DNA from: Acidobacteriota bacterium
GTDB lineage: Bacteria > Acidobacteriota > Terriglobia > Acidiferrales > UBA7541
Assembly: GCA_003223215.1 (NCBI GenBank)
Contig: QHYH01000130.1
Coordinates: 1 to 55,024, forward strand
Reading direction: 5' to 3'
Length of the DNA stretch: 55,024 nt
Position 1 is the first letter of the stretch; every line of letters starts with the position of its first letter. The notes under the pieces are model-generated. The model was not told where the DNA came from. It saw nothing but the letters and a program-made list of their open reading frames with translations, and searched no databases. Positions 5,662 through 54,521 of the stretch are shown in pieces. A program made the position numbers and the translations under genes.

Positions 5662-5844
5662 CAGCAAGGCAGACACTTCAGATCCCGCCTGAGAAAATCG
5701 GAAGATGTTGTCGATGAATAGCAGCACCTCCTGGTGCTTCTCCTCGCGAAATTCCCTGATGGCAAGCCCCGGTAGTGCCACTCGTAGCCGACCACTGGGT
5801 GGTTCGTTCACTTGGCCATAAACGAGGGCAATTTTGGATTCACT
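5662..5844 (-). pseudogene. atpD: ATP synthase F1 beta-subunit internal fragment
   Basis: About 60 codons on the minus strand encode a recognisable middle piece of F1-ATPase beta: [20 protein letters not shown], then [20 protein letters not shown]. This covers the region leading into Walker B (VLLFID) and the catalytic loop after it. The P-loop half and the C-terminal half are absent: the match starts abruptly around 5844, just inside the 3' end of the glgX remnant, and stops abruptly around 5662 (ALLVRRRT-stop where ALLGRMPS is expected). It cannot make a working subunit. Its place downstream of xfp-ackA suggests an ancestral cluster that once held an extra ATP synthase operon (inference). 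Confidence 0.8.
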
Positions 5845-7087
5845 GAGGGAGATGCATACTTCGATTGATCGGCATTGGTGGACCAAAGAACGACTACCGA
5901 GCGAGGCCCTGCCCGATATGTTTGTCCAGAAACTGAAGATGCGCTTTGCCACGGCACAATGTCTTGAGGCGGGTCCAAAAACGTATCGATCCACCGTCTC
6001 CACACTCCGCCCTTCTCCTCGTCTATGTGTGGCAGCTGGAACTCAAGAGGCTCCCAATAGGCGTTAAAGATGAAGCAGGCAAGCAAGCCTTCCCTGCGTA
6101 ACTCGACATTGAGGGCAATACTGTGCGAATGATGGCCCCAGTCCGGCCGATTCAGTTTTACTCCATGCCAGCTCTTCGTCGCCTGCCTGATTAACTCACT
6201 CAGGGTCAGCCGTTCGCGCTCGGGGCCGGTGTCTCGCAACAACCGCCTCGCGGTGAGTAGTTTTACAAACCGATGGATATCTGCATGGTTCCTGAGCAAG
6301 GACCAATCGTACCAGTTGGTTTCGTTATCCTGACAATAGGCGTTATTGTTGCCATGCTGCGTTCGACGGACTTCGTCGCCCATAAGGAACATAGGCAAGC
6401 CAAGCGAGAGCATTAACACGGTGAAGAAATTCTTCACCTGACGGTTTCTCAGCCTCTCAATTTCAGGATCATCACTCAGCCCCTCAACGCCACAATTCCA
6501 GCTGCGATTGTCGTCGGCGCCATCACGATTATTTTCACCATTGGCCTCGTTGTGTTTCCTGTTGTAAGAAACGAGGTCGTTGAGAGTGAATCCGTCGTGA
6601 CAAGTCACAAAGTTGACGCTCTGTTCGGCTTCGCGTTCTTCATGCCTGTAGATTTCGTGGCTACCAATCAATCTGTCCGCAAAGCGCTGCACGGAACCTT
6701 TTTCTCCGCAGAAAAAACTCCTCACGTCGTCGCGGAATTTACCGTTCCACTCTTTCCAGCTGTCCCCAAGAAAGCTCCCCACCTGATACAGCCCGGCCGC
6801 ATCCCACGCTTCAGCGATTATCTTTGTCCCGGCAAGTGCTGGATCCGACTCGATGTCCCACAGCACGGGGGGATTGGGCATGACATGGCCGGATGAGTCG
6901 CGCGCGAGAACCGAGGCGAGATCAAAACGAAAACCATCCACATGCATCTCTTCGACCCAATAGCGCAGACTATCGACGATCATTCGGCGAACGATCGGAT
7001 GATTCGCGTTCAGCGTATTTCCCGTGCCACTATAGTTCGCATAGTGCGACCGGTCGTGCTCCAAAACATAATAAGCGTTGATGTCTG
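5808..7087 (-). pseudogene. glgX: glycogen debranching enzyme GlgX, C-terminal part only
   Basis: The frame encodes the C-terminal 420 or so of about 700 residues of GlgX, the isoamylase-type enzyme that hydrolyses alpha-1,6 branches of glycogen. Counting from the TTG at 7064, the GH13 residues are visible: Asp48 in DGFRFDLAS (nucleophile), Glu85 in IIAEAWDAAG (acid/base), and His156-Asp157 in TCHDGFTLND. The C-terminal beta domain is intact and ends at RSVVVLW. The N-terminal CBM48 domain and the first half of the barrel are missing. Homology begins at DINAYYVLEHDR (about 7087), directly against a histidine-phosphatase fragment in another frame. A truncated protein of this kind is not expected to fold as an active enzyme. 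Confidence 0.85.
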
Positions 7088-7276
7088 GCGCGCGCGCTGC
7101 AGAGGGCTGGTGAAGACCTTTGCGAAAGTTAAGCCCTTGAGACGCTCGCCGAGTCCCCGGGCAGTGTGCTCCCCATGTTCTGTGAGTGGCAGGTCAGTCA
7201 AGCCAGTATGCTGGCCCGACAGGCTCCAGAGAGTCTCACCGTGCCGCGCTAAATAAACGACGGGCCAGTTCGTCCT
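7087..7276 (-). pseudogene. histidine phosphatase (phosphoglycerate mutase-like), N-terminal fragment
   Basis: The minus strand reads VVYLARHGETLWSLSGQHTG, TDLPLTEHGEHTARGLGERL, then FTSPLQRARQTS. This is the N-terminus of the histidine phosphatase superfamily, including the catalytic RHG motif and the conserved SPLxRARQT segment. After about 65 residues similarity ends at the junction with glgX (about 7087). No start codon is visible: the frame runs back to a TGA with only RTNWP before VVYLARHG, so the first codons are lost or altered. The original enzyme would be about 190-210 aa. It lies 100 bases downstream of ackA on the same strand, so it was probably the third gene of that operon. Confidence 0.8.
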
Positions 7277-7373
7277 TCATCGCCTCGTTGTCCTCCCCCG
7301 CTGTCCACGAATTTCATACGCAACCCACCCAACGTCGTCACTGGTGCTTCGGAGAAAATCAACGTAATGGTGC

Positions 7374-8660
7374 TCAGTGGACTCGTAGTTCCTCGACTTT
7401 CGGCGGTCGCCCCAGCTGTGAGGAACAGGGCCCAGCCAGAATGCAACGGACGGTGTCGCGTGCGATCAGGAGTTCTTCGTCGGTTGGAATTACGAAGGCA
7501 TGCAAACGGGAATCATGCGTGCTGATTTGGCTTTCCAATCCGACCGTTTGCTTGTTTCTGTTGTCATCCAACCTCAGACCCGCCCATTCGAGCCCGTGGC
7601 AGATGCGGGCGCGGATTTCTGGCGAGTTTTCTCCGATCCCTCCGGTGAAAACAACCGCGTCCGCACCCCCCATGCATGCGAGGAATGCTCCAATGTATTT
7701 TCTTGCGCGATAGCAAAAGACCTCGATTGCAAGGCGCACCCGGCGGTCGTCATGCTTCGCTTGTTCTTGCAGCAATACGCGCATGTCGTTGGTCAGCCCG
7801 GAGATGCCGAGCAATCCGGACTGGGTGTTGAGCAGCGCTTCCGTTTCGCCGGCGGATAGGCCTTCCTTGGTGGCAATCAGGCTCACAATCGCCGGGTCGA
7901 TGTCCCCCGACCGTGTTCCCATCACCAAACCTTCCAGCGGCGTCATCCCCATCGACGTGTCTATGGAGCTTCCACCTCGAATCGCCGCCGCCGAGCATCC
8001 ATTCCCGAGGTGCAAGGTGATGATATTGGTTTGCTCCGTGCTCACTCCAGCCAGCATCTGGTAGCGCTCGGTGACATAGCGGTGCGAGGTCCCATGAAAT
8101 CCATAACGGCGAATGTGGTGCCTTCGGTACAAGTGGTAAGGGACAGCGTACAGGTAGGCGTGCTCTGGGATCGAATGGTGGAACGAAGTGTCGAAGACCG
8201 CGACCTGCGGCAAATTTGGACCGAATACTTGCCGTGCCGCCAAAATGCCCTTGATGTTATTCGGGTTGTGCAACGGCGCTAACTCGATGCAGTCCTCAAT
8301 CCCCTTGAGCACCTCGTCGTTGATCAGCTTGGATTCCCCAAACAACTCGCCGCCATGAACGACGCGATGGCCAACGGCGTGGACGTCGCCGACGGCCTGG
8401 ATTTCGTGGATTCCCGAAGCGTCCGAGGTGATCCACCGCATGAGGTGTTCCAATGAGGCCTGCATGTCCCGCGTCGAGACACTGAACTTCTTCCTTGAGC
8501 CATCACGCACCAGCACAACGATAAGTACTTCTCCCCCGAACCGGTCAATCTGTCCCCGACACAGGCGCACATCTTTATTCGCGGCAATTGCGTCACGGTC
8601 CGTGGCGATCAACTGAAACTTCAGGCTGGAGCTTCCCGCGTTGAGTACCAGGACATTCAT
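7374..8660 (-). CDS. ackA: acetate kinase
   Basis: Converts acetyl phosphate and ADP to acetate and ATP in the cytoplasm, the energy-yielding step after phosphoketolase. Family motifs are all present: N-terminal [54 protein letters not shown]-type segment, [20 protein letters not shown] and [10 protein letters not shown] place the start at the ATG at 8660 because the family begins at [12 protein letters not shown]; an in-frame GTG at 8717 overlapping the xfp stop is an alternative that would add 19 residues and allow translational coupling. The C-terminus runs about 25 residues past the usual end. It follows xfp by 44 bp: a phosphoketolase-acetate kinase operon. Confidence 0.95.
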
Positions 8661-8704
8661 CAGCAGCTCGTCAAGAGAGAGGTCATCGACAAGATCGGTG
8701 GTTT

Positions 8705-11140
8705 CTAGTACGGCCACTTCCAGGCGGCAGCATCAGGCCTGTCTGTGCCGTGCTCGTAGGCATAATTTCGGCACGATATCTGTTCGTTAAGGAATTTCTC
8801 TTTTGCGTGGGCACCGATTCGCTGAAGCTTCGGAACGCGTTTAATAACATCCATGGCCAAGCTGAACCGATCAATGTCGTTCTCGATGGCCAACTCCAAA
8901 GGAGTGTTGATATTGCCCTGTTCCTTGTAACCGCGGACGTGCATATTGCGGTGATTCGTGCGGCTGTAAGCCAAACGATGGATGAGCCACGGATATCCGT
9001 GGAAATTAAAGATGACGGGTTTGTCGACGGTGAAAAGCGAATCAAAATCTTGGTCACTCAGCCCGTGAGGATGTTCCGAGCTCGGCTGCAGTTTAAAAAG
9101 GTCGATTACGTTGACGTAACGAATCTTGAGATCGGGAAATTCTTCGCGCAGCATCGCAATGGCTGCCAAGGCTTCCTGCGTCGGTATGTCACCGGCTGAG
9201 GCCAGCACAACATCCGGTTCGTTGCCCTGGTCATTGCAGGCTTTCTCCCACATGCCGATCCCCTTGGTGCAGTGGGTTATGGCGGCCTCCATGTCCAAGT
9301 ATTGCAGGTGCATTTGCTTGTCGCAGACGATCACGTTTACGTAGTTTTCGCTCTTCAGACAGTGATTGGCCACTGACAGCAGCGAGTTGACATCCGGAGG
9401 AAGATAAATGCGTGTAACAGCGGAACTCTTGTTGACGACAACGTCCAGGAAGCCCGGATCCTGGTGTGTGAAACCATTATGGTCCTGTCTCCAAACCGTT
9501 GACGTGACCAGGATGTTCAGCGACGCAACCTTTTCCCGCCACGACAGGTGATTGCAGATCGACAGCCACTTCGCATGTTGGTTGAACATCGAGTCGATGA
9601 CATGGATAAAGGACTCGTAGGACGAAATAAAGCCATGGCGTCCTGTAAGCAAATACCCTTCGAGCATGCCTTCCACCGTATGTTCACTCAGCATTTCGAT
9701 TACCCGGCCGTCACGAGCAAGTTCTCCGCCGTCCGCATCTTCGGGAAAGTCCTCCGCAATCCAGAATTTCTTACTGACCGCATAAATATCATTCAGTTTG
9801 TTGGAAGTGTTTTCGTCTGGTCCGAAGACGCGAAAGTTCTTCATGTTCAGTTTCATGACATCCCGCAGGAACACTCCCAGAGGACGCGTGTTTTCGGCCT
9901 CAATGGTCCCCGGTTTTTCAAGCTTCAAGCCGTACTCCTGGAAGTCCGGAAGGCGCAGGGCCCTCTTAAGCTTTCCCCCGTTAGCGTGCGGATTCGCGCC
10001 CATCCGTCGCGCACCCGTCGGAGCGAGTGCTTTCAGTTCTGCAACCAGTTTTCCGCTTTCGTCGAAGAGCTCTTCGGGTTTGTACGAGCGCATCCATTTC
10101 TCGAGTTGCTGGAGTCGCTGTGGATTCTTCCTAACGTCTGCCATCGGCACCTGATGGGCTCTCCAGAAACCCTCTAGTCTGTGGCCATCGACCTCTTTCG
10201 GGGCCGTCCAGCCTTTCGGAGTTCGCAACACGATCATGGGCCAGCGGATCCGCTCGGCAACTCCCGTCTTTCGCGCCTCCTGTTGGTGCCTCCTTATTTC
10301 GGAAATACAATGCTCCGTCGTTGCCGCCATCGCTTGATGCATACTTTCCGGATCAGAGCCCTCCACGAAGGAAGGTGTCCAACCGTAGCCTCGCAGCAGG
10401 TTCTCCAACTCTTCGTGACTAATCCGGGCAAGCAAGGTGGGATTGTTGATTTTGTAGCCGTTCAAGTGCAGGACCGGGAGAACCGCGCCATCGCGGATTG
10501 GATTCAAGAATTTATTGATGTGCCAGGAAGTTGCCAAAGGCCCGGTTTCCGCTTCACCGTCCCCGACGACGGCCGCAACAATTAGCTCCGGATTATCAAA
10601 GGCCGCTCCGCAGGCGTGGGAGAGCACGTACCCCAGTTCCCCTCCTTCATGGATCGAACCGGGTGTCTCCGGTGTGCAATGACTACCTACCCCGCCCGGA
10701 AAGGAGAATTGTTTAAAGAACTGGCGCAGACCTTCTTCGTCCTCGCTCTTATCTGTATAGATCTCGGAATAAGCCCCTTCCAAATAAACTGGAGCGAGAA
10801 CACCAGGGGCGCCGTGTCCGGGTCCCGCCAAGAAAATCATATCTAAGTCGTACTTCTTGATAAGGCGGCTTAGATGGATGTAGATAAAGGCCAAACCGGG
10901 ACTTGCCCCCCAGTGTCCGAGAAGCCGGTTCTTGATGTGCTCTAACTTCAGGGGCTGTCTCAAGAGCGGATTGTCCTGCAGGTAGATCATGCCAAGCATG
11001 AGGTAGTTACACGCCCGCCAGTAAGCATGGGTTTTGCGCAATTCCTCAGCACTCAGAGGGGTTCCTGAAATCGTGGATCTCGCTGTGCCATATGCAGAGA
11101 TGGAGTGGCTAGCCTTCTCGGCCGCTGTTACGGGTGTCAT
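8705..11140 (-). CDS. xfp: xylulose-5-phosphate/fructose-6-phosphate phosphoketolase
   Basis: Thiamine-diphosphate enzyme that splits xylulose 5-phosphate (and often fructose 6-phosphate) with phosphate into acetyl phosphate plus a sugar phosphate; AckA next door then makes ATP and acetate. About 810 aa, full length. Visible: N-terminal [20 protein letters not shown], substrate-site [11 protein letters not shown] and GPGHGAPG, the TPP/Mg motif [15 protein letters not shown] (about 193-207) and the C-terminal [18 protein letters not shown] region. Start ATG 11140 is chosen over GTG 11146 because the strong AAGGAAGGAG (11148-11157) lies 7 bases from the ATG but overlaps the spacing of the GTG. 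Fructose-6-phosphate versus xylulose-5-phosphate preference cannot be read from sequence here. Confidence 0.96.
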
Positions 11141-11147
11141 GCCCACA

Positions 11148-11157
11148 CTCCTTCCTT
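11148..11157 (-). promoter_or_regulatory. strong ribosome-binding site of xfp
   Basis: AAGGAAGGAG on the minus strand, seven bases before ATG 11140. It decides the start in favour of that ATG over the upstream GTG at 11146. Confidence 0.75.
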
Positions 11158-11548
11158 ACATACGCTTAACAGCGAGCCTATGGCCGGTTATAGCCCACGT
11201 CTTCTGTAAGAAGTGACAGGGCCCGCTTGGCTAACGGAGAGACGAGGTCAATGCCCAACTCAAGCCCGTGCTGCAAGGCCTGGCGATAGAGGCAAGTGGC
11301 GTTCAGACGGCTCCGGATAGTTCGATGTCCGACGCCGCGACGCCCGGACACGGAGATCGATCTAAAGCCGAAGGGCGAGTCTGATATCGGATTCGCTTGT
11401 ACTCGTGCGGTGCCACGTTGGTGTGCTTGGGAATGCCCACGAACTTGGTCATCACCATCGGAAAGCGTCCCGGTTCGCTCGATGCGTCCTACTTCACCGA
11501 CCATTTGTCGGACGGGGAAGCCCTGCGGCAATCGAAATGCTATGTTTT
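11158..11548 (-). other. xfp upstream region without a supported gene
   Basis: About 390 bases. Short frames exist on both strands but none has a recognisable domain or a convincing ribosome site. The xfp promoter must lie here; a TATAAC at roughly 50 bases before the xfp start on the minus strand could be a -10 element, but I see no good -35. This could also hold a decayed small gene. Confidence 0.3.
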
Positions 11549-12433
11549 CTAGACTCCAGCGATGGCTTTGTTCTGTAGAACACGCACGACCACGCGACGA
11601 TTCTCCGCTTGTCCTTCTGCTGTTGTGTCCTTGCCAGTTTGCTGGCTTTCGCCCATTGCACCTGGTGCAAGCATCCTGGTAAGAGGAATTTGCCCATCCT
11701 GAATCAGAATATTGACTACCTCGTTGGCCCGGTCCTCGCTTAGTTGTTGATTCAGGGTCACGCTGCCGACGGAGGAGGCGTGGCCCTTAACCTCGATAAC
11801 GTAGCCATTAATGGTCTTGGCTTTCTCCGCCAACGCAAGCAGTTTCGGGCGATAGCTGGGATCAACTTTGACCTGGCCGTTGCCAAAGTAGACAGTAACT
11901 TCATCGAGGATGTAATAATCGTCCAATTGCCCGAAACGCTCGACAGCAGCGTCAATCGACGCTTTGTTGGCAGCGATCTGTTGCTGCTGCTCTTGCAAGG
12001 CCACATTGTGTTTCTCTAGCTCCGCCTTGTTCTGCTGCGCCTGCACTCGAGTTTCGTGCATGCCAGCTTCTATTTTTTGAGCTTGTTCTAGATCGTTGCC
12101 TTTAAAGGAGACCGACTTCGCTACCAGTTGGCTCTGATCGTTATATGTTCCCTCTATTTTAACCTCGAGTCCCGGAATGAGCGCAGCCATCGACATTTCT
12201 TTCCTGCGGGCCTTGAACACACCCTGCACCTGTCCTACTTCAGTGTTGTCCGTCAGCAGGACCACCAGGCTTGCAGAGTCCGCAGTTTGCAGAGTCAAGG
12301 TGTCGCCGTTTCGTGCTTTGATAAGACCCTCGACCTTGATGGACTGGGCTAGAGCAATTGGGCCCAACAATGCAACTCCAATGAGCAACACAATGACAAC
12401 ATGGATAATTCTAAGTGAATGGGAATGGGTCAT
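11549..12433 (-). CDS. OmpA-family outer-membrane/periplasmic protein
   Basis: Secreted protein with a C-terminal OmpA peptidoglycan-binding domain. The ATG at 12433 is preceded by AGAGGAGG (12442-12449) eight bases away; the longer frame to 12481 lacks this. A signal peptide covers about residues 7-30 (IIHVVIVLLIGVALL, cleavage near IALAQS). A small beta-rich domain follows (about 32-110, VEGLIKARNGDTLTLQTADS), OB-like, then a coiled-coil region rich in Gln/Lys (about 120-165), then the OmpA domain (about 180-290) with the NQQLSEDRANEVVNIL signature and a final ENRRVVVRV strand. It lies 105 bp behind DUF2950 and the DUF3300 gene on the same strand, suggesting an envelope operon. Confidence 0.85.
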   Translation of the reverse strand: MTHSHSLRIIHVVIVLLIGVALLGPIALAQSIKVEGLIKARNGDTLTLQTADSASLVVLLTDNTEVGQVQGVFKARRKEMSMAALIPGLEVKIEGTYNDQSQLVAKSVSFKGNDLEQAQKIEAGMHETRVQAQQNKAELEKHNVALQEQQQQIAANKASIDAAVERFGQLDDYYILDEVTVYFGNGQVKVDPSYRPKLLALAEKAKTINGYVIEVKGHASSVGSVTLNQQLSEDRANEVVNILIQDGQIPLTRMLAPGAMGESQQTGKDTTAEGQAENRRVVVRVLQNKAIAGV

Positions 12434-12538
12434 AGATTGGTCCTCCTCTTGATTTGTTAATCCCCCGTCAACAGACCGCAAGACGTGGATGTTTGTTTTC
12501 TGGACGTCGCCGACAGCCCCAAAGAACTGTGTGACTCC

Positions 12539-13531
12539 CTAATCGTCTGTTTCCAAGACTTGGGTCCAGGATTTATTGGGATTGAAGCGTTCCATCTTTT
12601 GGAATTCAGCCAGGGTCTTCGGCCCGAAATCTTTTTCGAAGACTACGCCATCGTGGCTGACGATAAAGGTTTTGACGCCTGTCACGCCGTATTCGGCCGG
12701 TGCAGCTACCAGAGCGAAGCCCCCAATCATCACACCTTTCACGACGAAGTCCATTTCGCCAAGCGGCGCGGCAGGTCCTTCTCCTTTTAGAATCTTGAAA
12801 AAATAGCCGTGGTACGGCTCTCCAGCCGAGTAGCCTTGTTCGATAGCACGAGCGATTTTTTCACCGATTGGCCCAGCCCAGGAGCCGTCGGCGTTTTGCC
12901 AAGCCAAGCCATCCTGCTTGCCCGGCGTGCTGATGATGCGCTGGGCATACTGGTTCACTTCGTAGCCGTCGCGCTTTTGGAGAGCATAGTCGTGCTGGGC
13001 TTCCACATAGCCGTGGCAGATTGCGATGGCGTCCAATTCGTTGGCGCCAATGCGGCGGTAGAGGAGTTCCTGCCGGCCGGTTTTCCCGTCAAAGAACCAC
13101 TTATCAGCCCTCTTCACAATCGGGACGGGGAAAGGCCAGTCCTCATTGCCGACGAGGAGAAACGCCCGGTTCCCGCTCTTCGGGTCTACGGACACGCTCT
13201 TCTTTTCGCGGGCTTCCGCAGCAAAGTTGGTGGCGTGCTGCTGGTCTTGCGCATATTCGCCGGATAGAACTATGTCCTCGCCACCAGGGCCAAAAATCTG
13301 CAGCAAGGTATTCACATCGAACTTGTCCGCAGCATCAATCAGCGCATCTACAGCCTGCTGCGGGGTGTCGAAGCTTCGCGTTCCTACAGTAGAGGCAGCC
13401 GGAGTGGCCGACGGTCTTTCCATGGGAGACTGCTGCGCGGCGAAGGGAGCCGCAAACAGAAAGGCCGAGGCCGCTGTGCAGCCAAGCCAAAGATACTTTG
13501 AAATATGCCTCTTCGCAGCTGTTGATTTCAC
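12539..13531 (-). CDS. DUF2950 family secreted protein
   Basis: 330-aa exported protein of the DUF2950 family, function unknown. A signal peptide is visible (about 10-32, LWLGCTAASAFLFAAPFAA). Characteristic segments include SFDTPQQAVDALIDAA near the mature N-terminus, FGPGGEDIVLSGE, WPFPVPIVKRADKWFFDGK, the RRIGANELDAIAICHGYVEA box, and GYFFKILKGEGPAAP plus the GFALVAAPAEYGVTGVKTF C-terminal block. DUF2950 genes commonly sit beside DUF3300 genes, and here the DUF3300 gene is only 21 bp upstream. Together with the OmpA gene downstream they probably form one envelope-directed transcription unit. No catalytic residues are identifiable. Confidence 0.9.
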   Translation of the reverse strand: MKSTAAKRHISKYLWLGCTAASAFLFAAPFAAQQSPMERPSATPAASTVGTRSFDTPQQAVDALIDAADKFDVNTLLQIFGPGGEDIVLSGEYAQDQQHATNFAAEAREKKSVSVDPKSGNRAFLLVGNEDWPFPVPIVKRADKWFFDGKTGRQELLYRRIGANELDAIAICHGYVEAQHDYALQKRDGYEVNQYAQRIISTPGKQDGLAWQNADGSWAGPIGEKIARAIEQGYSAGEPYHGYFFKILKGEGPAAPLGEMDFVVKGVMIGGFALVAAPAEYGVTGVKTFIVSHDGVVFEKDFGPKTLAEFQKMERFNPNKSWTQVLETDD

Positions 13532-13552
13532 GCCGGTGCTCCTGTTGGTTTC

Positions 13553-14866
13553 TTATCTGCGCCGTCCCCCACCGCCACGACCGCCACCGCCACCGGAGCC
13601 TCCGCCTCGGGATCCCATGCTGGAGGAGCCGCGGCTGCTGCTGGCGCGTGCGCTCGATCCGTTGTAGCCCCGGGAACCCCGGGAACCTCCTCCGAAGGCA
13701 TCCCGGTTTCCGCCACCGCCACGCGAGAGATCCCGGCTGCCAATGCGATCCGCTCCTCCAGCCCCCGCTCGATTACCCCCGCCGACTCCGCCGCCGGCCC
13801 GGTTGCTGAGGCCACCACCACCACCACCTCCTCCACCAGCGCGATTGCTGGGCAGGTTGCCGCCCTGGCGGCTAAGCTGTTGTCTAGCACCAGCCTGACG
13901 GTTGGCCACGGAGTCGCCTCGCGTAGTGCCGCCAAACCTGTCTGCGGTCGCGCGGTCGCGATACGGTGCTCCGCCCCGATGTTGCGGATTGTGCTTCCAA
14001 CTGGCATCCCCACGGCCTCCTCCAATGCCATCACGGCCGGGTTGTTGCGATGGGCGGTTTCCATTCCCGATATTGTTGCGGTTGCCGCCAATGTTCGAGT
14101 TGCGGTTGAAGTTGTTGTTGTTGTTGATGTTGATGTTGTTGTTGCTCCAGCCGCATCCCCAGCCCCAACCACCGCTCCAGAACGCGCCCATCATCACGCC
14201 GACACCAAACGAAATCGCCAGCCCTGCAGCGTAGTACCCTGGCGGTGGGTAATAAATGGGAGGGTAGGGATAGACGGGCGGGCCCCAGACCACCACGGGA
14301 TCATAGGAAGGCACATACACAACTTGAGGATTGGCCTGTTCGACCACGATCACACTCTTGCTCTCGATGACCTTGGTTTCCACCTTCTGTTGCTCGGTCG
14401 ATTTCAGATTACCGCTGTCTTGGGCCTTTTTGCGCATACGCTGTACGGCATCCATCACGTCGTTTTGCTGCGCCAAGAAGGCGTTGCCCAGATCCGTGGT
14501 CCACTGAATGTCGTCTGCCAGACGCTTTACCACGTCCGGCAACCCAGCCATGGCCTGGATACTTGGATCCCACGACTGTTTCGCGACCGCGTCAGCCAGC
14601 GCTTTGTCTTTCAGCCCCGGGTTCTTCAAGAGCCACTGCTGAAGCTGAATGATTTCGAGTGGATAGGTCGACGCTGCCAACGTTTGCGCCAGCAACGGAT
14701 CAGGATAAAGGGCAATCGGCGCAACGAGAGAATCCAGTTGGTCGGGCGGAATCTTGGAAACCTGGTCGCCGGACTGCGAAGGTGCTGACGGCGGGAACGG
14801 CACCGTCGGCATCGTGTCGCCCGGAGCGATAACCAGGGTAAGAACCACCACAAGCAGAATCCGCAT
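13553..14866 (-). CDS. DUF3300 family secreted protein with Asn- and Gly/Arg-rich tail
   Basis: Exported DUF3300 protein of unknown function. The domain proper spans about 35-210: LDSLVAPIALYPDPLLAQTL, YPLEIIQLQQWL, then NPQVVYVPSYDPVVVWGPPV and a Pro/Tyr-rich stretch. A glycine-rich membrane-like segment follows (GVGVMMGAFWSGG), then a run of Asn/Ile (NNNININNNNNFN) and about 170 residues of Gly/Arg/Ser low complexity ending in GGGRRR. I start at ATG 14866, which gives a clean signal peptide (MRILLVVVLTLVIA); ATG 14914 would add 16 polar residues. The basic tail could bind polyanions such as DNA, RNA or acidic polysaccharide (inference). First gene of the DUF3300-DUF2950-OmpA cluster. Confidence 0.88.
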   Translation of the reverse strand: MRILLVVVLTLVIAPGDTMPTVPFPPSAPSQSGDQVSKIPPDQLDSLVAPIALYPDPLLAQTLAASTYPLEIIQLQQWLLKNPGLKDKALADAVAKQSWDPSIQAMAGLPDVVKRLADDIQWTTDLGNAFLAQQNDVMDAVQRMRKKAQDSGNLKSTEQQKVETKVIESKSVIVVEQANPQVVYVPSYDPVVVWGPPVYPYPPIYYPPPGYYAAGLAISFGVGVMMGAFWSGGWGWGCGWSNNNININNNNNFNRNSNIGGNRNNIGNGNRPSQQPGRDGIGGGRGDASWKHNPQHRGGAPYRDRATADRFGGTTRGDSVANRQAGARQQLSRQGGNLPSNRAGGGGGGGGGLSNRAGGGVGGGNRAGAGGADRIGSRDLSRGGGGNRDAFGGGSRGSRGYNGSSARASSSRGSSSMGSRGGGSGGGGGRGGGGRRR

Positions 14867-14968
14867 GTTTTCACCCAAGCAGTCGCTTTTGGGGATCCAT
14901 AGTGATTCGAGCATGCATCACTCACTCACTCTTTCCGACTGTCAAAACTAACAGTCTGCGAAAACTGC

Positions 14969-15460
14969 TTGGCGATGTGCGAAAAAAGAAGCGGACCAGG
15001 ACGCAATAGACCGAAGAGCGCCAATAACAACCGAAAGGAGCATCGGAGCGTGGCTGGCCACGTAACCACGAGCAGCGTCAACACTTTCGCCGTTTATCAG
15101 CCTCAGGTGGACAACTGGCACGCAGACTTGGTGAACCTCTATTGTGGTGTCGAACTGAAGACAGGAAAACAGACAGCTTCCAATTACGGCGTGGTTTGGA
15201 TTCAGGCGCGGACCGAAGTGGACAAGGTGAACCGGTTGGTGACGCTCGACCAACTGGAGGCAGCACTCGAAGCAGACAGCGAAGCAGCCAAGGGCGTCGA
15301 AGTGAAGAACGACCCGCCCAGGGTAATCATTGCAAGTAAACCCCAGAGCCCGCCGCCGATGTGCGCACCGCTCAAGGGCAACTCATCGTTAAGAGTGCAA
15401 CTCAAGGGGATGAGGCCTCTGGTCATTTTGACAGGTGTCCGGACACTGGGGTTCGTCTAA
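14969..15460 (+). pseudogene. N-terminal fragment of a large secreted acidobacterial-type protein
   Basis: A 163-codon frame whose residues about 28-95 look like a conserved domain start (VTTSSVNTFAVYQPQVDNWH, then YGVVWIQARTEVDKVNRLVT). As far as I recall, this pattern opens much longer (several hundred residues) secreted proteins in this phylum; I cannot verify that here. After about residue 98 the sequence becomes unpatterned, and there is no signal peptide: the N-terminus is a basic, unconserved stretch. So both ends seem lost and only one internal domain remains. It is divergent from the DUF3300 gene and 27 bp upstream of the TPR gene. Function unknown. Confidence 0.4.
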
Positions 15461-15487
15461 AAATGTCGCACAAGAGGTAGCACAAAC

Positions 15488-17365
15488 TTGAGCAGGCTTC
15501 TCCGAAAGGTCTTCCGCATCGCGAAGTATCTTGTTTTCCTGCTTCTCTTCTCGACTGCGTCTCTCTCCAATGCGGTTTTCGCGCAGTCGCCCACGCCGAA
15601 CCCCGGTGCAGCGAACAGACACGGTGCGAGCGATATCGACATTCATTTGAGGGGGGCGGACGGCGGTCCGATCGAAGTGCCAGCAGTGGTTACTTTGCTT
15701 GCCGGAAGCGGGCAAGTCCTCACGCAAGGAACAACGCTGAGCGGCAACATACAATTCAAAAGAGTAGCTGCAAGCGCATATACCATTCAGGTGGCTGCAC
15801 CCGGTTATGAAAGTGTTGCCAAAGAATTTCGGCCCTTCGGTGCGGGAACGTCGACAGTCTTTATTGACATGCGGCCGGCGCGGGGTGGAAAAACCGGCAC
15901 GGGTTCCTCGCAGACGCTCCTTGCCCCGAAAGTCCAGAAGGAGTTGGGCAAGGCTCTGGAAGCGTTGCGCTTGAACAAGCCAGAACAGGCGAGGAGTCAC
16001 CTTGCAGCTGCCTATGGCAAGGCTCCAAATCATCCCGCGGTGAATTATCTCTACGGCGTTTATTTCCTGCAAATGGAGGCTCAAGAGAAGGCTAAGTCCT
16101 ATTGGGCAAAGGCTCTGGAGTTTGATCCCAAACATGTTTCTACGCTGCTGGCTTTGAGCCAGGCGCTGATGCGGGAACAAAAACTCACCGAAGCAGAAAC
16201 GTACGTGAAGCGGGCGGTGGAAGTTGACCCCAACTCTTGGCGTGGGCATGCGATTCTCGCAGATGTTCTCTTGAAAGAGCATTTGCCGGAAAAAGCCGTC
16301 CAGGAAGCCGATCACGCGCTGAAACTTGGACATGGACAAGCCGCGATCATACAGCCGCTGCTGGCGCAGGCATTGGCGGAAGGCGGGAACAAGGAACGCG
16401 CTGCAAGACTTCTGGAAGAATACGTTCAGGACCATCCCAGTGATGTCGCAGCGCGCAACCAGCTCGAGCGTATGCAGGCCACGGACGTGCTCATCCTCCC
16501 CGCCAAAGAGGCGGCTCTCGCCGAAGTCAAACCATCAGCCATTTCACTGCCGCTGCCGTCAAACTGGTTGCCTCCTGATGTGGATGAGAAGGTGCCGCCC
16601 GTTGAGCCGGGCGTCCCGTGTGCGTTGGATGAGCTAGTTCAGCAAGCGGGAAAGCGGGTCGAGGAGTTCATCAAAAATGTGGACCGTTTCGCGGCCAGTG
16701 AATTCCTGAGGCACGAATCCATCAATAAATGGGGATTGGCAGAGTTTCCGGAAACGCGCAAGTTCGATTATGAAGTGAGCATCGAGCAATACCGGCCGGG
16801 CTACTTCGATGTGAGCGAGTATCGGGGCAACAAATACTCGCCCGCACAATTCCCAGACGGCGTGGAAACACGCGGGCTACCGTCGATGGCGCTAATTTTT
16901 CACCCAAATAATGTCGGAAGCTTTGCACTGAGTTGCGAGGGTTTGGGCCAATGGAATGGAACCCCGGCGTGGCAAGTGCACTTCCGTCAGAGGCCAGACA
17001 AGCCGAATACCATCCGCTCGTATAAGATTGGCGAGAATGGCCCTTCCTACCGAGTTGCATTGCGAGGGCGCGCGTGGATCGCCGCGGACAGTTATCAGAT
17101 CGTGCGTATGGAAACAGATCTGGTGAGCACATTGCCGGAAATCCGCCTCTTTGTCGATCACACCATCGTTGAATATGGTCCCGTGCGCTTCAAGAACCGT
17201 GATGTGGAAATGTGGCTACCGCAGAACGCCGACCTGTACTGCGATTGGAGAGGAAAGCGTATGCACCGGCGCCACAGCTTCAGCGATTACATGCTTTTCT
17301 CGGTGGATGAGAAGCAGCACATCTCAGAGCCGCAAACGGAAGCGAAAAGCCAAACAAAGAATTGA
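15488..17365 (+). CDS. secreted TPR protein with carboxypeptidase-regulatory-like domain
   Basis: 625-aa exported protein. The TTG start at 15488 has AGAGG ten bases upstream and gives a signal peptide (about 8-36, YLVFLLLFSTASLSNAVFAQ). Next comes a beta-sandwich of the carboxypeptidase-regulatory/PEGA kind (about 48-125, VVTLLAGSGQVLTQGTTLSG), then TPR repeats (about 155-330; ALEALRLNKPEQARSHLAAA, LYGVYFLQMEAQEKAKSYW, ALMREQKLTEAETYVKRAV). The C-terminal third (about 380-610) is a beta-rich domain with no name I can give, containing YRVALRGRAWIAADSYQIVR, reminiscent of outer-membrane lipoprotein-sorting folds. Probably a periplasmic or surface scaffold. The stop is followed directly by a cytochrome scrap. 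Confidence 0.8.
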   Translation: MSRLLRKVFRIAKYLVFLLLFSTASLSNAVFAQSPTPNPGAANRHGASDIDIHLRGADGGPIEVPAVVTLLAGSGQVLTQGTTLSGNIQFKRVAASAYTIQVAAPGYESVAKEFRPFGAGTSTVFIDMRPARGGKTGTGSSQTLLAPKVQKELGKALEALRLNKPEQARSHLAAAYGKAPNHPAVNYLYGVYFLQMEAQEKAKSYWAKALEFDPKHVSTLLALSQALMREQKLTEAETYVKRAVEVDPNSWRGHAILADVLLKEHLPEKAVQEADHALKLGHGQAAIIQPLLAQALAEGGNKERAARLLEEYVQDHPSDVAARNQLERMQATDVLILPAKEAALAEVKPSAISLPLPSNWLPPDVDEKVPPVEPGVPCALDELVQQAGKRVEEFIKNVDRFAASEFLRHESINKWGLAEFPETRKFDYEVSIEQYRPGYFDVSEYRGNKYSPAQFPDGVETRGLPSMALIFHPNNVGSFALSCEGLGQWNGTPAWQVHFRQRPDKPNTIRSYKIGENGPSYRVALRGRAWIAADSYQIVRMETDLVSTLPEIRLFVDHTIVEYGPVRFKNRDVEMWLPQNADLYCDWRGKRMHRRHSFSDYMLFSVDEKQHISEPQTEAKSQTKN

Positions 17366-48956: not shown

Positions 48957-51624
48957 TTATTCGTACCGCAAGGCGAGGATCGGATCGACGCGTGTTGCAC
49001 GCCGCGCCGGGATGTAACTCGCGACCAAGGCCACAACCAGCAGCAGGAAAAGCGCGGAAGTGAAGGCGATAGGGTCATATGCGCTGACACCAAAAAGCAT
49101 GTTGGAGAGCACTCGGGACACAGCAGCACATCCGGCCACGCCCGCCAGCCCGCCGAGCAGCACCGGGCGCATTGCCTGCCGGAGCACAGGGCTCATGACC
49201 TCGCTGCCATCAGCGCCGAGTGCCATGCGGATGCCGATCTCACGCACGCATCGGCTAACCCGGTACGACGCCATTGCATAGACGCCGATCGAGCCAAGCA
49301 GCAAAGCCAGGGCGGCTAGCCCGGTAGACAGCGCGGCTACAATGCGCGAGGGAATCCGCCAGACTTCGAGGTAGTCTTCGACCGTGTTCATGTCGACAGG
49401 ACGTCGGCATCAAGCGACGCGACCGCCTCGCGAATGGCTTTGCTGATCGGCATGAAACGACCAGAGAAGCGTACCAGCACATAAGTGCGCACGTTATCCC
49501 GTGGCCCGGCCGGAAAATAAAGGTACGGGGAGCTGAGCTCGCTGAGATGGGAAACTTGCGCGTCCTTGGCCACTCCGATCACCGTATCTTGATGCCCGCC
49601 GCGGAGTAATCGTTTCCCCAGTGGATCTTCGCCCGGCCACAGACGCCGAGCCGTTGATTCCGTGACGATGATCACCGAGGCATCGTCGCGCGCATCGGCT
49701 TGCGCGAAGCCACGGCCACGCGCAATGGGAATCCCAACAACGGAGAAGTATTCTGGCGAAACGTGATTGTATTCGATCTCCACTTTATCGTCGCGGCCGG
49801 AAACCGTGAAGTCGCCAGCGCTCCGGTCGTGGCTCAGCGGGGCGCACTCCGCTTGCGCAATCTCGATCACTCCGGGGAGGCCTGCGATCCGCTCGCGCAA
49901 GCGTTGTACAAACGCAGGCGCGCGGCTTTCATCGTAGCCCTGCGCTCGAAGGTTGAGGAATGCCCCCGCGAGGTCGTTCACGTCGAATCCAGGATTGACC
50001 GTCTGGGCGCAATAAAGTCCGCGCAACAGGAGTCCGGCCGCCAACAGCAGGATCATGCACCCGGCGATCTGCGCTCCCACCAGCCGCTGCGCAAGAGTCC
50101 GCTCTTTTTGCCATCGTCGGAATATGGACTGTCTTCCTTCAAAGCAGTATTCAAGTCTAGCCGCGAACTCTTCAAAGCCGGAATCAGCCCAAACATAACT
50201 CCGGTAAAAACGGTCAGCGTCAGCCCGTAGGCCAGTACCCGAAAGTCCGGCGCAACGTTCACTCTGAGAGTTGAAAACTGATGCGGCAGGTGAGATACCA
50301 CGAACCGCGTGATGCTCGCGAAGGACCCGAACGCAAGCACCGATCCGAGCGCCCCTCCCGTCAAGGAAAGGAGGAGGCTCTCCGTCAACAATTGCCGCAC
50401 GAGACGCCCCCGGCCGGCGCCGATGGACAGCCGGAGCGCCATCTCTTTGTGGCGCACGGAAGCTCGCGCGAGCAGAAGATTGGCAACGTTCGCGCAAGCA
50501 ATCAACAGCACGAGTCCGAAAGCGCCGAAGATTACCGAGGCGACCGGGATCAGGAGTTCCCGCTCGTCCGCTCTGTTGAAGAATGTTCCTATGCTGAGGG
50601 CTAGCGAAGTAGTGCGTCCAGGATATAGTTGGTCAGTGCGTCCGGCGATGACGCCGAGGTCCGCGCGCACCTGCTCCATCGTCACGCCAGGCCGCATCCG
50701 TCCCAGCATCGCCAGCCAGCTTACATTGTCACTGGTCAAGTAATCGCGCCCTGAGTCCAGAGCTTTTTGCATGGTCAGGGGCGCCCAGAACGCACTCGGG
50801 AATGGCTCGGTGCCTGTAAATCCTGGGCGCGTAATGCCAATCACGGTAAACGCCGCTCGGTTCAGGAGGATTCGCTTGCCTACGAGTGAAGGGTCGCCTT
50901 CAAATGTCCCCTGCCATAACCCATCGCTGATCACCACGACAGCGTTTTCGCCCGGAGCGGCGCAGTCGGAACTGACAAAACCCCGGCCGTGTGCCGGATG
51001 CTCGTTCAAAACTTCGAAATAGTTGCAAGTGGCTGCGGTCCCCAAAAGCCGCTGCAACTTGCCGCCGGCAAGGGTTGCTTCGATAAAAGGCTCGTAGGCC
51101 AAGAGACCCGAAAAGACCTCATTGTGATCGCGGTAGTCGAGGTATTCCGCGTAGGAGAACATGCTGGTTTCCCCGTGAGTGTCGCGCTGGAACTGTCCAT
51201 GGAAAACCTGGTCCACGCTCACGATCTGTTCTGCGCGGGGAATCGCGAGCAGACGCAGCATAGCTCCGTTCAGCACCGAAAAGATGCCGACGTTGATTCC
51301 GACACCCAGGGCAATGGCCAGTATGGCAGCGGTTGTGAAGCCGGGATTTTTGCGGAGTACGCGCAGCCCGTAGCGCAGGTCCTGCAGGAAGGTTTCCACA
51401 AGCGATTCCCAGGCGGCAGAGCGGACGACTTCCTTTGCACCTTCGAGATGGCCCTGCTCTAGCCGCACCGCTCGCATCGCATCCTTGCGGCTCATCCCCT
51501 GATTCATCTTCCCATCCTCTGCCATCTCCATGTAGGCGCGCAATTCCTCATCCAAGTCCCGGTCGACTTGCTCCCTTCTGAAAAGCGACCGCAGCCCGCT
51601 TACAACATTTCGCAGCAAGGACAT
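48957..51624 (-). pseudogene. ADOP/MacB-like ABC permease, two frameshifts
   Basis: Acidobacterial duplicated orphan permease: N-terminal ADOP region plus two FtsX-like permease domains, about 889 codons. ATG 51624 (MSLLRNVVSGLRSLFRREQV, DRDLDEELRAYMEMAEDGKM). MacB-type periplasmic domains and helices are visible ([80 protein letters not shown]). Frame breaks are at 50105-50109 (A-run on the minus strand one base short; GKK then ERTLAQRLVG) and 49399-49400 (CC where CCC would restore DVPVDMNTVEDYLE). Both are one-base losses in homopolymers, so a sequencing error is as likely as a true pseudogene. Operon with PadR and the first ADOP gene. Confidence 0.85.
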
Positions 51625-51639
51625 CGCTCACCCGCTTAA

Positions 51640-51659
51640 GACGCCTGCAAAGTTCTCGC
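51640..51659. repeat. 20-base repeat, copy 2
   Basis: GACGCCTGCAAAGTTCTCGC, one mismatch to 48903-48922. It lies 16 bases before the start of the second ADOP gene. On the minus strand it encodes ARTLQAS-stop, resembling the PadR C-terminus (ARILEAS-stop), which suggests a deleted PadR gene upstream of this permease. Confidence 0.5.
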
Positions 51660-51803
51660 ACTGAGCCCGAGCTGGCTGCTCCGCGTCTCCAAGATTCCAG
51701 CGCGGGTCACTCCTATGAAAATAGCTGCCTATCGCGTTGAAAACAAAGCATAGGTGCCTGGGTCCATTTTCATCCTTCGTTGTGGCTCTCCGAGAGCCAT
51801 GAG

Positions 51804-54521
51804 TTACTCGTAACGAAGTGCCACCATCGGATCGACGCGTGTCGCGCGCCGCGCCGGGAAGTACGTGGCCGCCAGAGCGGCCAGCACGAGCAACGAGAGA
51901 GCGCCGACAAAACTCAAGGGGTCTGTATCGGTAATGCCAAACAGCATTTTCTTGAGCAGCGACGCTGACCAATACGCTAGCGCCAGCCCGACGGCGAGTC
52001 CCGTGCCGGCGAAGCGCACGGCACGGCGCAAAAGAAGCACAACAATGTCTTTGCGGCTTGCGCCAAAGGCCATTCGAATGCCGATCTCCGGAATGCGCTG
52101 CGCAACAAAGTAATGGATCACTCCGTAGACGCCTGCCGCGGCCAGCAGCAGCGCAAGCGAAGAAAACAGTCCCATCAGCCACGCCTGAAACCGCCTCGGT
52201 GCTGTCTGCTCATGGAGTACGTCCTGCATGGTTTCGATGCCGGAGAGAATGACACCCTTATCGAGCGAACGGAGAGTGGCGCGAATGGTCTCGGCCGGCA
52301 AGACCGGGCCGGAGGAGGTGCGCACCACGAGATTGGGCGTAGCTTCGCCACTCTGCGCCTGAGCTTCATAAATTTCCGCCATCGGCGCCCGTTCGAGACC
52401 ATGGCTGCGCATATCCGCAACAAGCCCGACAACGGTCACCCAGTCGTCATTCTGTCCACGCGGATCGAATCCCTTTAGCCGTTTGCCGATAGGATCTTCG
52501 CCCGGCCAGTAGCGTTTCGCCAGCGTCTGATTAACGATGGCCACGGGAGGAGAGCCCGGCCCATCCAGTGAATGGAAGTATCTGCCCTTGAGCAGGGGGA
52601 TTCCCATGGCGCGAAAATAGTCGCCGCCAATCTGTGCCCAAACGAGCGGCGTCCAATTCGCTTCGGGCTCGGCGGGATGTCCCTCCACCTGGCGGAGTGC
52701 ATGATTCCGGTTCTCCTCGCGAAAAAAGATGTTGCTGACAGTACCTGCCGCTTGCACTCCCGGGATTTGCCGCAGCCGTTCGAGCACGCGCTGGTAATAA
52801 TCGGCGATGCGGCCGCGAGGAGCTGCGTCCGGATCGCTAACGAGCATCCTGACCGTAAGGATGTGATCGGGCCGAAATCCGGGGTCTATTTCGAGCACTT
52901 TCACGAAACTGCGAATCAACAGGCCTGCGTTCACGAGCAAGACGAGCGAGAGCGCAAACTGCGCGCCGACGAGCAACCCCTGCATTGGCAGCGTGTTGGT
53001 GGCTGTGCTTTGCTGCCCGGTCTTCAGCAATTCGTGTGGATCGCCTGCTGAGAATCGTCGCGCCGGCACCAATCCAAACGCCAGGCTGCAAAGCAGCGCG
53101 AGCAAAAAGCTGAAAGCCAACACGGCGGCATCCATGCGGGTCTCATCGAGCCGGGGGATGTTCACGGGCGACAGCGCAACGATCAGACGAACGGTGGGCC
53201 CTGCGAGTAGCAAACCCGTGCCGCCGGCAAGAATCGCCAGGAGCGCCGACTCGGTCAGCAGCTGCCGAACGAGCCGCATTCGCGTGGCCCCGATGGCCGC
53301 GCGCACCGCCAACTCCCGTGCCCGTGCGACACCACGCGCCAGTGACAGCGTAGCGAGATTCGTGCACGCAATAAGCAACAGCAGCAAGACGCAGAGGGAC
53401 AACAGCAATAGCGGCCGGCGCATCTCGCCGGCGATGTATTCGTCGAGTCGCCGTACCCGCACGCCCAATGTCTTGTTGGAGTCTGGATACTCGCCCGCCA
53501 GCCGCCCGGCAATGGTGTCCATCTCGTTTTGCGCCGTACCGATACTGACGGTCGGCTTCAGTCTTCCCACCACTTGGAATCGGGCCTTGCCCGGTGAGCG
53601 CGTCACGTTCAATGAGCCGCTCGCCGATGGCTCATCGGATGGATTGGTTGTCAGCGGCGCCCACAGCTGGACTTCGTCCTCAATGTGGTCTTCCCAATTG
53701 CCGGCGAGGAAAGGAAAGCGGAACTCTGGCGGCATAACACCCACGACTTGCCATGGCTTGCCGTCAATATAAAGCTTTTGCCCTAAGGCTTCGGGCGATC
53801 CGCCGAAGCGCGATTGCCAGACTCCATAACTCAGAACGATCAGCCGTTCGCGGCGCCGCAACTCTTCCTCGGTAAAGGCGCGGCCAAGGAGCGGTGGAAC
53901 GCCCATCAACGGAAAGAAATTCGACGATACGAACGCGCCTTGGACCTTCTTCGGTTCCTCGCCAGTGAGAGTAACCACGGACCAGCCCCGTTTATAGAAG
54001 ACAGCCAGGTCCTGAAAGGAATGTACCTGACGCCGCCATTCGAGGTAGTCCTGGTAACTTGTGCTTCCGTCGGAGACCGCCCAACCAACCGACCGCGTGT
54101 CGCTGACCCACAGCATGGCCAGTCGGTCGGGATCGTTGTAGGGCAGCGGACGAAGCAGCACTGCATGCACAACGCTAAAAACCGCAGTATTGGCGCCAAT
54201 ACCCAACGCCAGGATCAGCACCGCAAGAACTGCGAATCCTGGCGATTTCCTCAGTGCGCGCAAACCGTAGCAAAAGTCTTGCCAGCACGTCTCCAAAAGA
54301 AACGCCCATCCCGCAGAGTGGATGATTTCCTTGGTGGCCTCGAGAGTCCCCCGCTCCAAGCGTACTGCCCGAAGAGCTTCCTTGGGGGTCATCCCCTGCT
54401 TGGTCTTTTCTTCGGCCGCCATCGCAAGGAAGCCGTACAGCTGTTCGTCCAGCTCTCCCGCCGCCCGTTTTTTTTCGAGCAGCGAGCGAAGCCCGCTTGC
54501 TATGTTTCGCAGTAAGGACAT
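51804..54521 (-). CDS. ADOP/MacB-like ABC permease (intact)
   Basis: 905-aa acidobacterial duplicated orphan permease: an N-terminal ADOP region ([20 protein letters not shown], amphipathic helices) and two FtsX/MacB permease units. Helices include [80 protein letters not shown] and [20 protein letters not shown], with periplasmic MacB domains containing [13 protein letters not shown]-type and [15 protein letters not shown]-like segments. It ends [17 protein letters not shown] as is usual. 'Orphan' because no ATPase subunit gene is adjacent. Role unproven: export or mechanotransmission. Follows PadR by 9 bp; regulated with it. Confidence 0.93.

Follow-up and report, generated by a model that had tools for sequence, protein, structure and literature searches.

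The DUF3300–DUF2950 pair of an Acidobacteriota contig and its relatives: an anchorless pilin-like domain and, in Rhizobiales, a putative self-cleavage site at the natural end of the chain

Do three neighboring genes for exported proteins on an acidobacterial contig make up a single envelope system, or is the conserved unit smaller? The question concerns positions 11549-14866 of a 55,024-nucleotide stretch of DNA (contig QHYH01000130.1 of assembly GCA_003223215.1, Acidobacteriota bacterium; the whole stretch analyzed is hereafter the window), where three open reading frames (ORFs) on the minus strand encode a DUF3300 protein, a DUF2950 protein, and an OmpA-like protein. A preliminary description of the same DNA had seen three exported proteins in a row and proposed an unrecognized envelope-associated system for binding nucleic acid or polysaccharide. 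The ORFs, their coordinates, and their families were confirmed, and all three proteins carry a hydrophobic N-terminus of the Sec-signal type, judged by inspection. The interpretation itself is partly supported, holding for the pair and hardly for the trio: DUF3300 and DUF2950 are a co-inherited pair, secreted by inspection. The pairing is already known, and what appear to be new are a pilin domain in DUF2950 and a Peptidase_S74 site placed where DUF3300 naturally ends. The two genes and the gap between them are:

13553..14866, minus strand, DUF3300 protein of 437 amino acids (PF11737, E 6.5e-74; exported by inspection)
13532..13552, minus strand, 21-bp gap between DUF3300 and DUF2950 with an AGGAG ribosome-binding site for DUF2950 (from sequence; operon-like)
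12539..13531, minus strand, DUF2950 protein of 330 amino acids (PF11453, E 2.6e-106; exported by inspection)

Both proteins pass their Pfam gathering scores (248.7 bits versus 25 for DUF3300; 355.2 versus 20.2 for DUF2950). The DUF3300 reading frame runs from ATG 14866 to TAA 13553-13555 and DUF2950 starts at GTG 13531 with AGGAG (13539-13543) ahead of it, the starts and ribosome-binding sites of all three window genes having been read from the sequence by eye. A terminator scan showed no terminator-like site in the 21-bp gap and, around the cluster, no more such sites than chance level, and a promoter scan of 11000-15600 found no sigma-70-like promoter.

Comparison across loci identified DUF3300 directly upstream of DUF2950 on the same strand in 73 of 80 named DUF2950 loci. 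A second sample of 61 genomes (the window's own included), overlapping the first in two places, contained 38 DUF2950 matches, and 34 of them showed the same arrangement. The 8.8-Mb genome of the window has three DUF3300 and three DUF2950 matches, every one paired. Several counts weigh against so close a bond. Six of the seven unpaired named loci are excused by a contig end alone (DUF2950 lies within about 720 bp of it), as are three of the other four genomic matches, the fourth being a short fragment; the E. coli control genome has a DUF3300 protein (YacH) and no DUF2950 match. DUF3300 stood without a partner in 18 of 53 rows of the 61-genome sample, some of them at contig ends. At the seventh unpaired named locus, L135 (labeled Nitrospirae), a look-alike gene occupies the place of DUF3300. 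This gene (L135:4793-5875) encodes a 360-amino acid exported protein with an aromatic segment and a Gly/His/Arg tail, GGGVSGGGFHGGGR, that gave no Pfam match of any kind; it is a possible non-homologous replacement of DUF3300. In the samples examined, an intact DUF2950 with room upstream always had a partner, either DUF3300 or, at one locus, the look-alike, and DUF3300 also occurs alone.

The distance matrices of the two partners were correlated at r 0.851 (87 loci, duplicates removed), a value that none of 2000 partner shuffles among paralogues within three genomes reached (one of 2000 did when two duplicate loci were kept); part of this correlation is expected from common descent. The test used 87 of the 104 loci with both proteins and omitted L066, L130, L146, the duplicates L106 and L110 (which repeat L055 and L054), and any locus showing an internal stop or no recognizable domain end. 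The closest named loci of the pair are labeled Acidobacteria and others are labeled Verrucomicrobia, Nitrospirae, Deltaproteobacteria, and further groups, with at least 574 confirmed stretches carrying the pair; in a same-genus genome (G022), two places are identical to those of a named Acidobacteria assembly. When DUF2950 was counted instead of the pair, matches were present in 201 of 72,556 plasmid records, mostly from Sinorhizobium and Rhizobium, and a phage collection gave two partial matches, both labeled Salmonella. An apparent DUF3300-DUF2950 fusion (L098:2178-4541) was rejected, the Gly tail shifting frame before DUF2950's own leader, and a similar frame shift seems to conceal the DUF3300 gene on pSymA of S. 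meliloti (L196).

According to an excerpted account from 2015, the two genes are universally co-localized in rhizobia with function unknown, and two transcriptome studies cited there found the pair induced (PMC4653623). The rhizobial and window pairs share the identical two Pfam families, the gene order, and signal peptides, so the epithet "unrecognized" falls away; the excerpt concerns rhizobia and makes no mention of fold, Peptidase_S74, or tail end, whereas the pair is followed here into further phyla.

What, then, is DUF2950? The AlphaFold model (ma52357240aa9) has two domains with a mean predicted local distance difference test (pLDDT) score of 88:

13088..13369, minus strand, NTF2/cystatin-like domain, residues 55-148 (model ma52357240aa9; VIA-align, moderate Z)
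12554..13087, minus strand, type IV pilin-like domain, residues 149-326, a long helix (149-184) followed by a beta sheet (VIA-align; HHalign)

The first domain matched many NTF2-like chains in VIA-align at Z of about 5-6.5, which is under the tool's safe level. Within residues 157-326 of the predicted model, ComP (Z 7.9), PilE (7.3), and PilX (6.5) were matched, and the best match of the protein was PilA4 (Z 9.2 over 118 residues, in a range starting at residue 54); fold families that do not appear in the VIA-align lists are not thereby ruled out. A profile of the pilin-like domain searched against the window's genome retrieved, beyond the three DUF2950 proteins, just two ORFs, each with an E of 0.2 that by itself lacks significance, and both are tandem PilA-type prepilins starting KGFSLIELLIVV. 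Near-identical PilA-type prepilin genes stand in tandem at L170 and L171 (contig 52 of G000) in the window's genome. HHalign of the domain against acidobacterial PilA, represented by 45 related pilins of which a few are truncated or doubtful, returned a probability of 87.8 and E 3.3e-6 over 120 columns. Reversing the profile gave a probability of 0.1, none of 20 unrelated neighbor families exceeded 0.8 (best E 0.073), and the 35 more distant DUF2950 proteins alone gave 88.2. The aligned sheet pairs GFALVAAPAEYGVTGVKTFIVSHDGVV in DUF2950 with GFEVNATPTTYQTTGVRAFCDDQTGVL in the pilins. Since the fold match, the own-genome profile search, and HHalign agree, the second domain of DUF2950 is concluded to be homologous to the globular part of type IV pilins.

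Some of these results detract from that conclusion. The Foldseek match of DUF2950 was weak (best ComP, E 0.04), and a VIA-align Z below 8 can reflect a common arrangement, PilA4 alone exceeding 8 with a range that reaches into the first domain. The HHalign signal lies chiefly in the sheet (83.1, residues ~269-305) with the helix alone at 19.3, and its E-value is uncorrected for family choice because one chosen family was compared. In separate searches, the DUF2950 profile gave three chance-level matches only against PDB sequences, and five isolated C-terminal domains matched, in Pfam at E up to 10, DUF2950 itself and one chance match only.

Type IV pilins are defined by a class III prepilin peptide and the hydrophobic N-terminal half of their helix. 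The DUF2950 C-terminal domain resembles PilA4, ComP, PilE, and PilX in its long helix and beta sheet and is related by profile to acidobacterial PilA, whereas the prepilin signal and the membrane-spanning helix half are absent and a Sec-like leader followed by the NTF2-like domain stands in their stead; DUF2950 is therefore no conventional pilin. One reading of the relationship is that DUF2950 targets type IV pili, its pilin-like domain serving as a decoy or a cap, and the window's genome does have PilT and the tandem PilA genes. This is highly improbable, however, as the domain lacks the helix half by which pilins assemble and PilT was above its cut-off in all four genomes compared from the window's side versus none of six pair-bearing Rhizobiales (some maybe incomplete), counts that favor independence of the pair from retractable type IV pili. 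The combination of an NTF2-like with an anchorless pilin-like domain appears to be new, and a pilin domain in DUF2950 was not found in the open-access literature, most subscription papers lying outside that search.

Along its chain, the DUF3300 partner has a folded helical domain and a hairpin, then a hydrophobic segment rich in Gly, then a conserved W-H-N-P-H-R module, and lastly a variable disordered tail with a conserved GGGRR end. In the window, the main parts are:

14297..14746, minus strand, ordered N-terminal domain, residues 41-190, a helical bundle and beta-hairpin with a VVYVPSYDP motif (AlphaFold model m8029dcf7fd3e, block pLDDT 88-97)
14006..14146, minus strand, Asn-rich stretch and linker, residues ~241-287 (block pLDDT 84 over 241-250, then 42-61)
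13862..14005, minus strand, conserved module WKHNPQHRGGAPYRDRATADRFGG, residues ~288-335 (alignment columns; block pLDDT 77-92 over 291-330)
13556..13861, minus strand, disordered Gly/Arg/Ser tail, residues 336-437, with the end SxRGxSSxG...GGGGRR (alignment columns)

A PDB search with the whole-length model found no fold match, and the DUF3300 profile gave zero matches to PDB sequences. Conservation was read from alignment A4, containing 61 of 72 named-locus proteins and the window (A3 holds 69 of 79, A1 25 of 35 candidates, and A2 24 of 34); the A3 and A4 rows were picked by hand, mostly by dropping truncated proteins, and L098 was excluded. Of the module, W290 is kept in 61 of 62 rows and H292, H296, R297, and Y302 in 60 each, and the motif WxHNPxHRGGxPYxDxxTAxRFGG is recognizable in E. 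coli YacH. Pattern searches recovered it less often (36 of 52 strict, 46 of 62 relaxed) because its spacing varies. The far end of the tail is similarly constant, with G413, S416, and G433 in 60 of 62, R435 in 56, and R436 in 58, and 53 of 62 proteins have an RR among the last three residues predicted for the mature chain. This conserved module and GGGRR end of the DUF3300 tail appear to be new.

YacH shares with the window protein the DUF3300 domain and the W-H-N-P...Y module and differs in having other C-terminal repeats and no GGGRR end. In excerpts of the literature, yacH is regulated by CpxR and its deletion mutant outlived the wild type under protamine (PMC9600279), and yacH is reduced in a rob mutant exposed to butanol (PMC7537768). 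The protamine phenotype fits a surface role, and these observations together fit an envelope role, without providing a mechanism. The pair is of wider interest in being widespread, induced in rhizobial transcriptomes (PMC4653623), and akin to a CpxR-regulated protein (PMC9600279), while neither family has a name.

The constancy of the DUF3300 end takes on meaning in the Rhizobiales. Peptidase_S74 (PF13884, here S74) was identified in five of the 62 A4 proteins, and the five found by site pattern, all Rhizobiales loci, read GGGGRR-SDIxLKHD. Of a further 21 loci on the Bradyrhizobium side, ten had S74, each with RR right before S-D, and five of those without it end in RR or RRR. The 21 are not one random sample, eight coming from six genomes chosen for the pair (three already known to carry S74) and 13 from the same family, and the site at L209, which the site pattern missed, was counted from its C-terminal sequence by eye, its Pfam score being just under the cut-off. 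With three genes common to both sets, 12 distinct S74-bearing DUF3300 genes were obtained, all from Rhizobiales and all with RR directly before S-D-x-x-x-K; ten exceed the 22-bit cut-off and L144 (20.6) and L209 (21.7) fall just under it. The Ser and Lys of the domain are in place in these proteins.

Excerpts on characterized S74 domains describe promotion of trimerization followed by self-cleavage at the Ser through a Ser-Lys dyad five residues apart (PMC3828593; PMC8326128). As the domain starts exactly after RR, cleavage would leave about the same end that a stop codon gives elsewhere, and S74-bearing and S74-less DUF3300 proteins should thus mature to the same terminus, as far as can be told from sequence. 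The placement points to a functional requirement for the GGGRR end and to oligomerization in the family. The 12 Rhizobiales proteins share the S-D-x-x-x-K site and the Pfam match with the S74 domains of phage tailspikes, MyRF, and MrfA, unlike which the carrier is a bacterial Gly/Arg-rich secreted protein; an S74 site placed where DUF3300 naturally ends was likewise not found in print, within the same bounds of the open-access literature.

Two observations pull the other way. Six of the 21 further loci reach neither S74 nor RR (two at a contig end, one masked, two that look frame-shifted, and one with another end), and trimerization of the window protein is an extrapolation because S74 is here confined to Rhizobiales, the window DUF3300 giving no PF13884 match at E 0.001.

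An oligomeric secreted DUF3300 scaffold that displays a variable tail, with DUF2950 as its dedicated partner, is our tentative account of these sequence features, with a probability put somewhat under even. Both proteins would be exported via the Sec system; where S74 is present, it would trimerize the chain and cut itself off, leaving approximately GGGRR, and the mature DUF3300 would be oligomeric, the basic end of its tail being free. DUF2950 would dock on it as a dedicated soluble partner and not as a conventional pilus subunit. The assembly might sit in or on the outer envelope, where the tail, cationic Gly/Arg or His-rich by lineage, might hold a charged ligand under envelope stress, candidates being lipopolysaccharide, exopolysaccharide, extracellular DNA, or metal. 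A bolder version, argued by analogy and rather unlikely as a whole, is that of a secreted assembly system in which DUF3300 self-assembles (as a trimer by S74 precedent) into a fiber or platform whose mature chain needs a free GGGRR terminus, DUF2950 is a former pilin, released from the membrane when an NTF2-like domain took the place of its anchor and retained as dedicated partner, and the tail chemistry has been exchanged between lineages for different ligands. The pilin-derived soluble domain and the exactly placed self-cleavage site provide concrete handles on such proposals (whether the chain is cut, whether it forms trimers, and whether binding occurs).

The same pairing data could be explained if DUF2950 were a dedicated periplasmic chaperone or holdase keeping the hydrophobic and low-complexity parts of DUF3300 soluble until placed. 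DUF2950 practically needs its upstream partner while DUF3300 goes unpaired in part of the rows (some at contig ends), the partners are co-inherited, and Rhizobiales DUF3300 proteins have gained an intramolecular chaperone in S74. Yet at least nine of the ten S74-bearing loci in the 21-locus set still show DUF2950 adjacent, so neither stands in for the other, and unpaired DUF3300 proteins exist without DUF2950; moreover, the pilin fold is not known as a chaperone fold. The chaperone role is consequently judged doubtful.

Returning to the scaffold with its displayed tail, does the tail betray a ligand? The preliminary description had noted an end of about 170 residues, Asn then Gly/Arg/Ser, as ideal for binding polyanions. 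The composition is borne out, with 61 Gly, 28 Arg, 21 Ser, and 15 Asn in the 182 amino acids of residues 256-437 and a net charge of +21, but the stretch is not uniformly low-complexity and encloses the conserved module predicted to be ordered at residues ~291-330. Tails were net positive in 52 of 52 counted (median +21; A4, with 10 of 62 uncounted), and polyanion binding may hold for many DUF3300 members. It is not a common denominator of the family because six same-genus loci, which also tell against a uniformly cationic tail, have about neutral His-rich tails (net -4 to +8), their mean His share being 11.9% versus 3.3% in 27 others (33 of 34 tails counted) and 0.8% in the window.

At these six loci (L047, L059, L069, L072, L075, and L076), the pair adjoins a multicopper oxidase gene and several have a sigma-54 activator, response regulators, an RND pump, or a Dps-like ferritin gene nearby, as seen by Pfam on representatives only. 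Together with the His-rich tails, the oxidase and, at some loci, the ferritin or pump would suit a metal-handling module whose tail binds copper or iron. As a reading of the pair in general this is improbable, given that the six loci are alike, probably reflecting one inherited arrangement, and that the window tail has so little His.

The third gene of the window was examined for membership of the unit:

11549..12433, minus strand, OmpA-like protein with a DUF5666-like N-terminal part, a coiled coil, and an OmpA domain (PF00691, E 1.4e-13; optional neighbor)

It starts at ATG 12433, 105 bp beyond DUF2950, with AGGAGG (12442-12447) ahead. The OmpA domain is above its Pfam cut-off (51.4 bits versus 27.2) and the N-terminal DUF5666 match is below its own, and the protein belongs to a distinct family combining the DUF5666-like part with the coiled coil. 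A family member was identified within about 6 kb of the pair in six of 80 loci (L088, L089, L092, L107, L108, and L123), all Acidobacteria by title, and the fetched flanks of the other 74 gave no match at E 1e-30. Six of 80 exceeds the 0.03 to 0.6 roughly estimated for one to three such genes per genome, and the OmpA-like gene is therefore a recurrent optional neighbor. In L107 (50 bp) and L123 (326 bp), it lies directly upstream of the pair on the same strand; in L088, L089, and L092, it lies 1.0-1.7 kb off on the opposite strand; and the window order recurs only in L108 (Edaphobacter aggregans), where frame changes, due to decay or to sequencing error, disrupt the same-strand gene at 7151-7999. 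In the relative G003, it is 3.1 kb downstream of the pair with other genes between, and genome G012 has an 84%-identical copy and neither a DUF2950 nor a DUF3300 match. With the family absent from 74 of 80 flanks, its place varying, and G012 lacking the pair, the gene was rejected as a fixed third member.

Excerpted data on A. baumannii OmpA attribute diaminopimelate (DAP) binding to Asp271 and Arg286 (PMC5974059). The window protein resembles A. baumannii OmpA and PA0833 in its OmpA domain and the Arg of the DAP site and differs from them in its N-terminal part and in a Ser at the Asp271 position, a replacement found in the window and nine of 11 family members with the Arg kept; L083 (by eye) and L123 retain the Asp. 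The supposition that this protein binds peptidoglycan accordingly lost its footing. An envelope system of all three genes, in which the OmpA protein ties nucleic acid or polysaccharide to the peptidoglycan, would agree with the short gaps between the genes in the window and their individual ribosome-binding sites there, with the six neighbor loci, including the same order in L108 and the directly upstream genes in L107 and L123, and with the positive tails. The idea is nevertheless unlikely to be right in view of the opposite-strand copies in L088, L089, and L092, the broken copy in L108, the pairless G012, the lost Asp in most family members, and the restriction to six acidobacterial loci with other fetched flanks unmatched at E <1e-30. 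Trio conservation across genomes, the check suggested for the proposal, was thus not borne out, and what survives of the envelope system is a conserved exported two-gene unit.

Other genes near the pair were seen more sporadically. DUF4136 neighbors were counted at 11 loci by cluster and five of the 80 named loci; a DUF4136 gene lies directly downstream of DUF2950 in L046 (6240-6896) and L084 (5233-5793) and near the pair in seven same-genus loci. In L139 (Bradyrhizobium), a small exported EipA-like protein (6944-7375) is encoded 23 bp downstream of DUF2950, its match being below the Pfam cut-off (23.3 versus 30.8), and its cluster was also found near pairs in Verrucomicrobia-labeled loci. Within the window, no Rfam families or tRNA genes were found. 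Downstream of the OmpA-like gene on the same strand, positions 5808-11146 hold a Pfam-confirmed phosphoketolase (XFP) and genes that we take to encode an acetate kinase and a glycogen-debranching enzyme, and large ORFs on the minus strand at 49388-54521 resemble permeases of the MacB/FtsX type.

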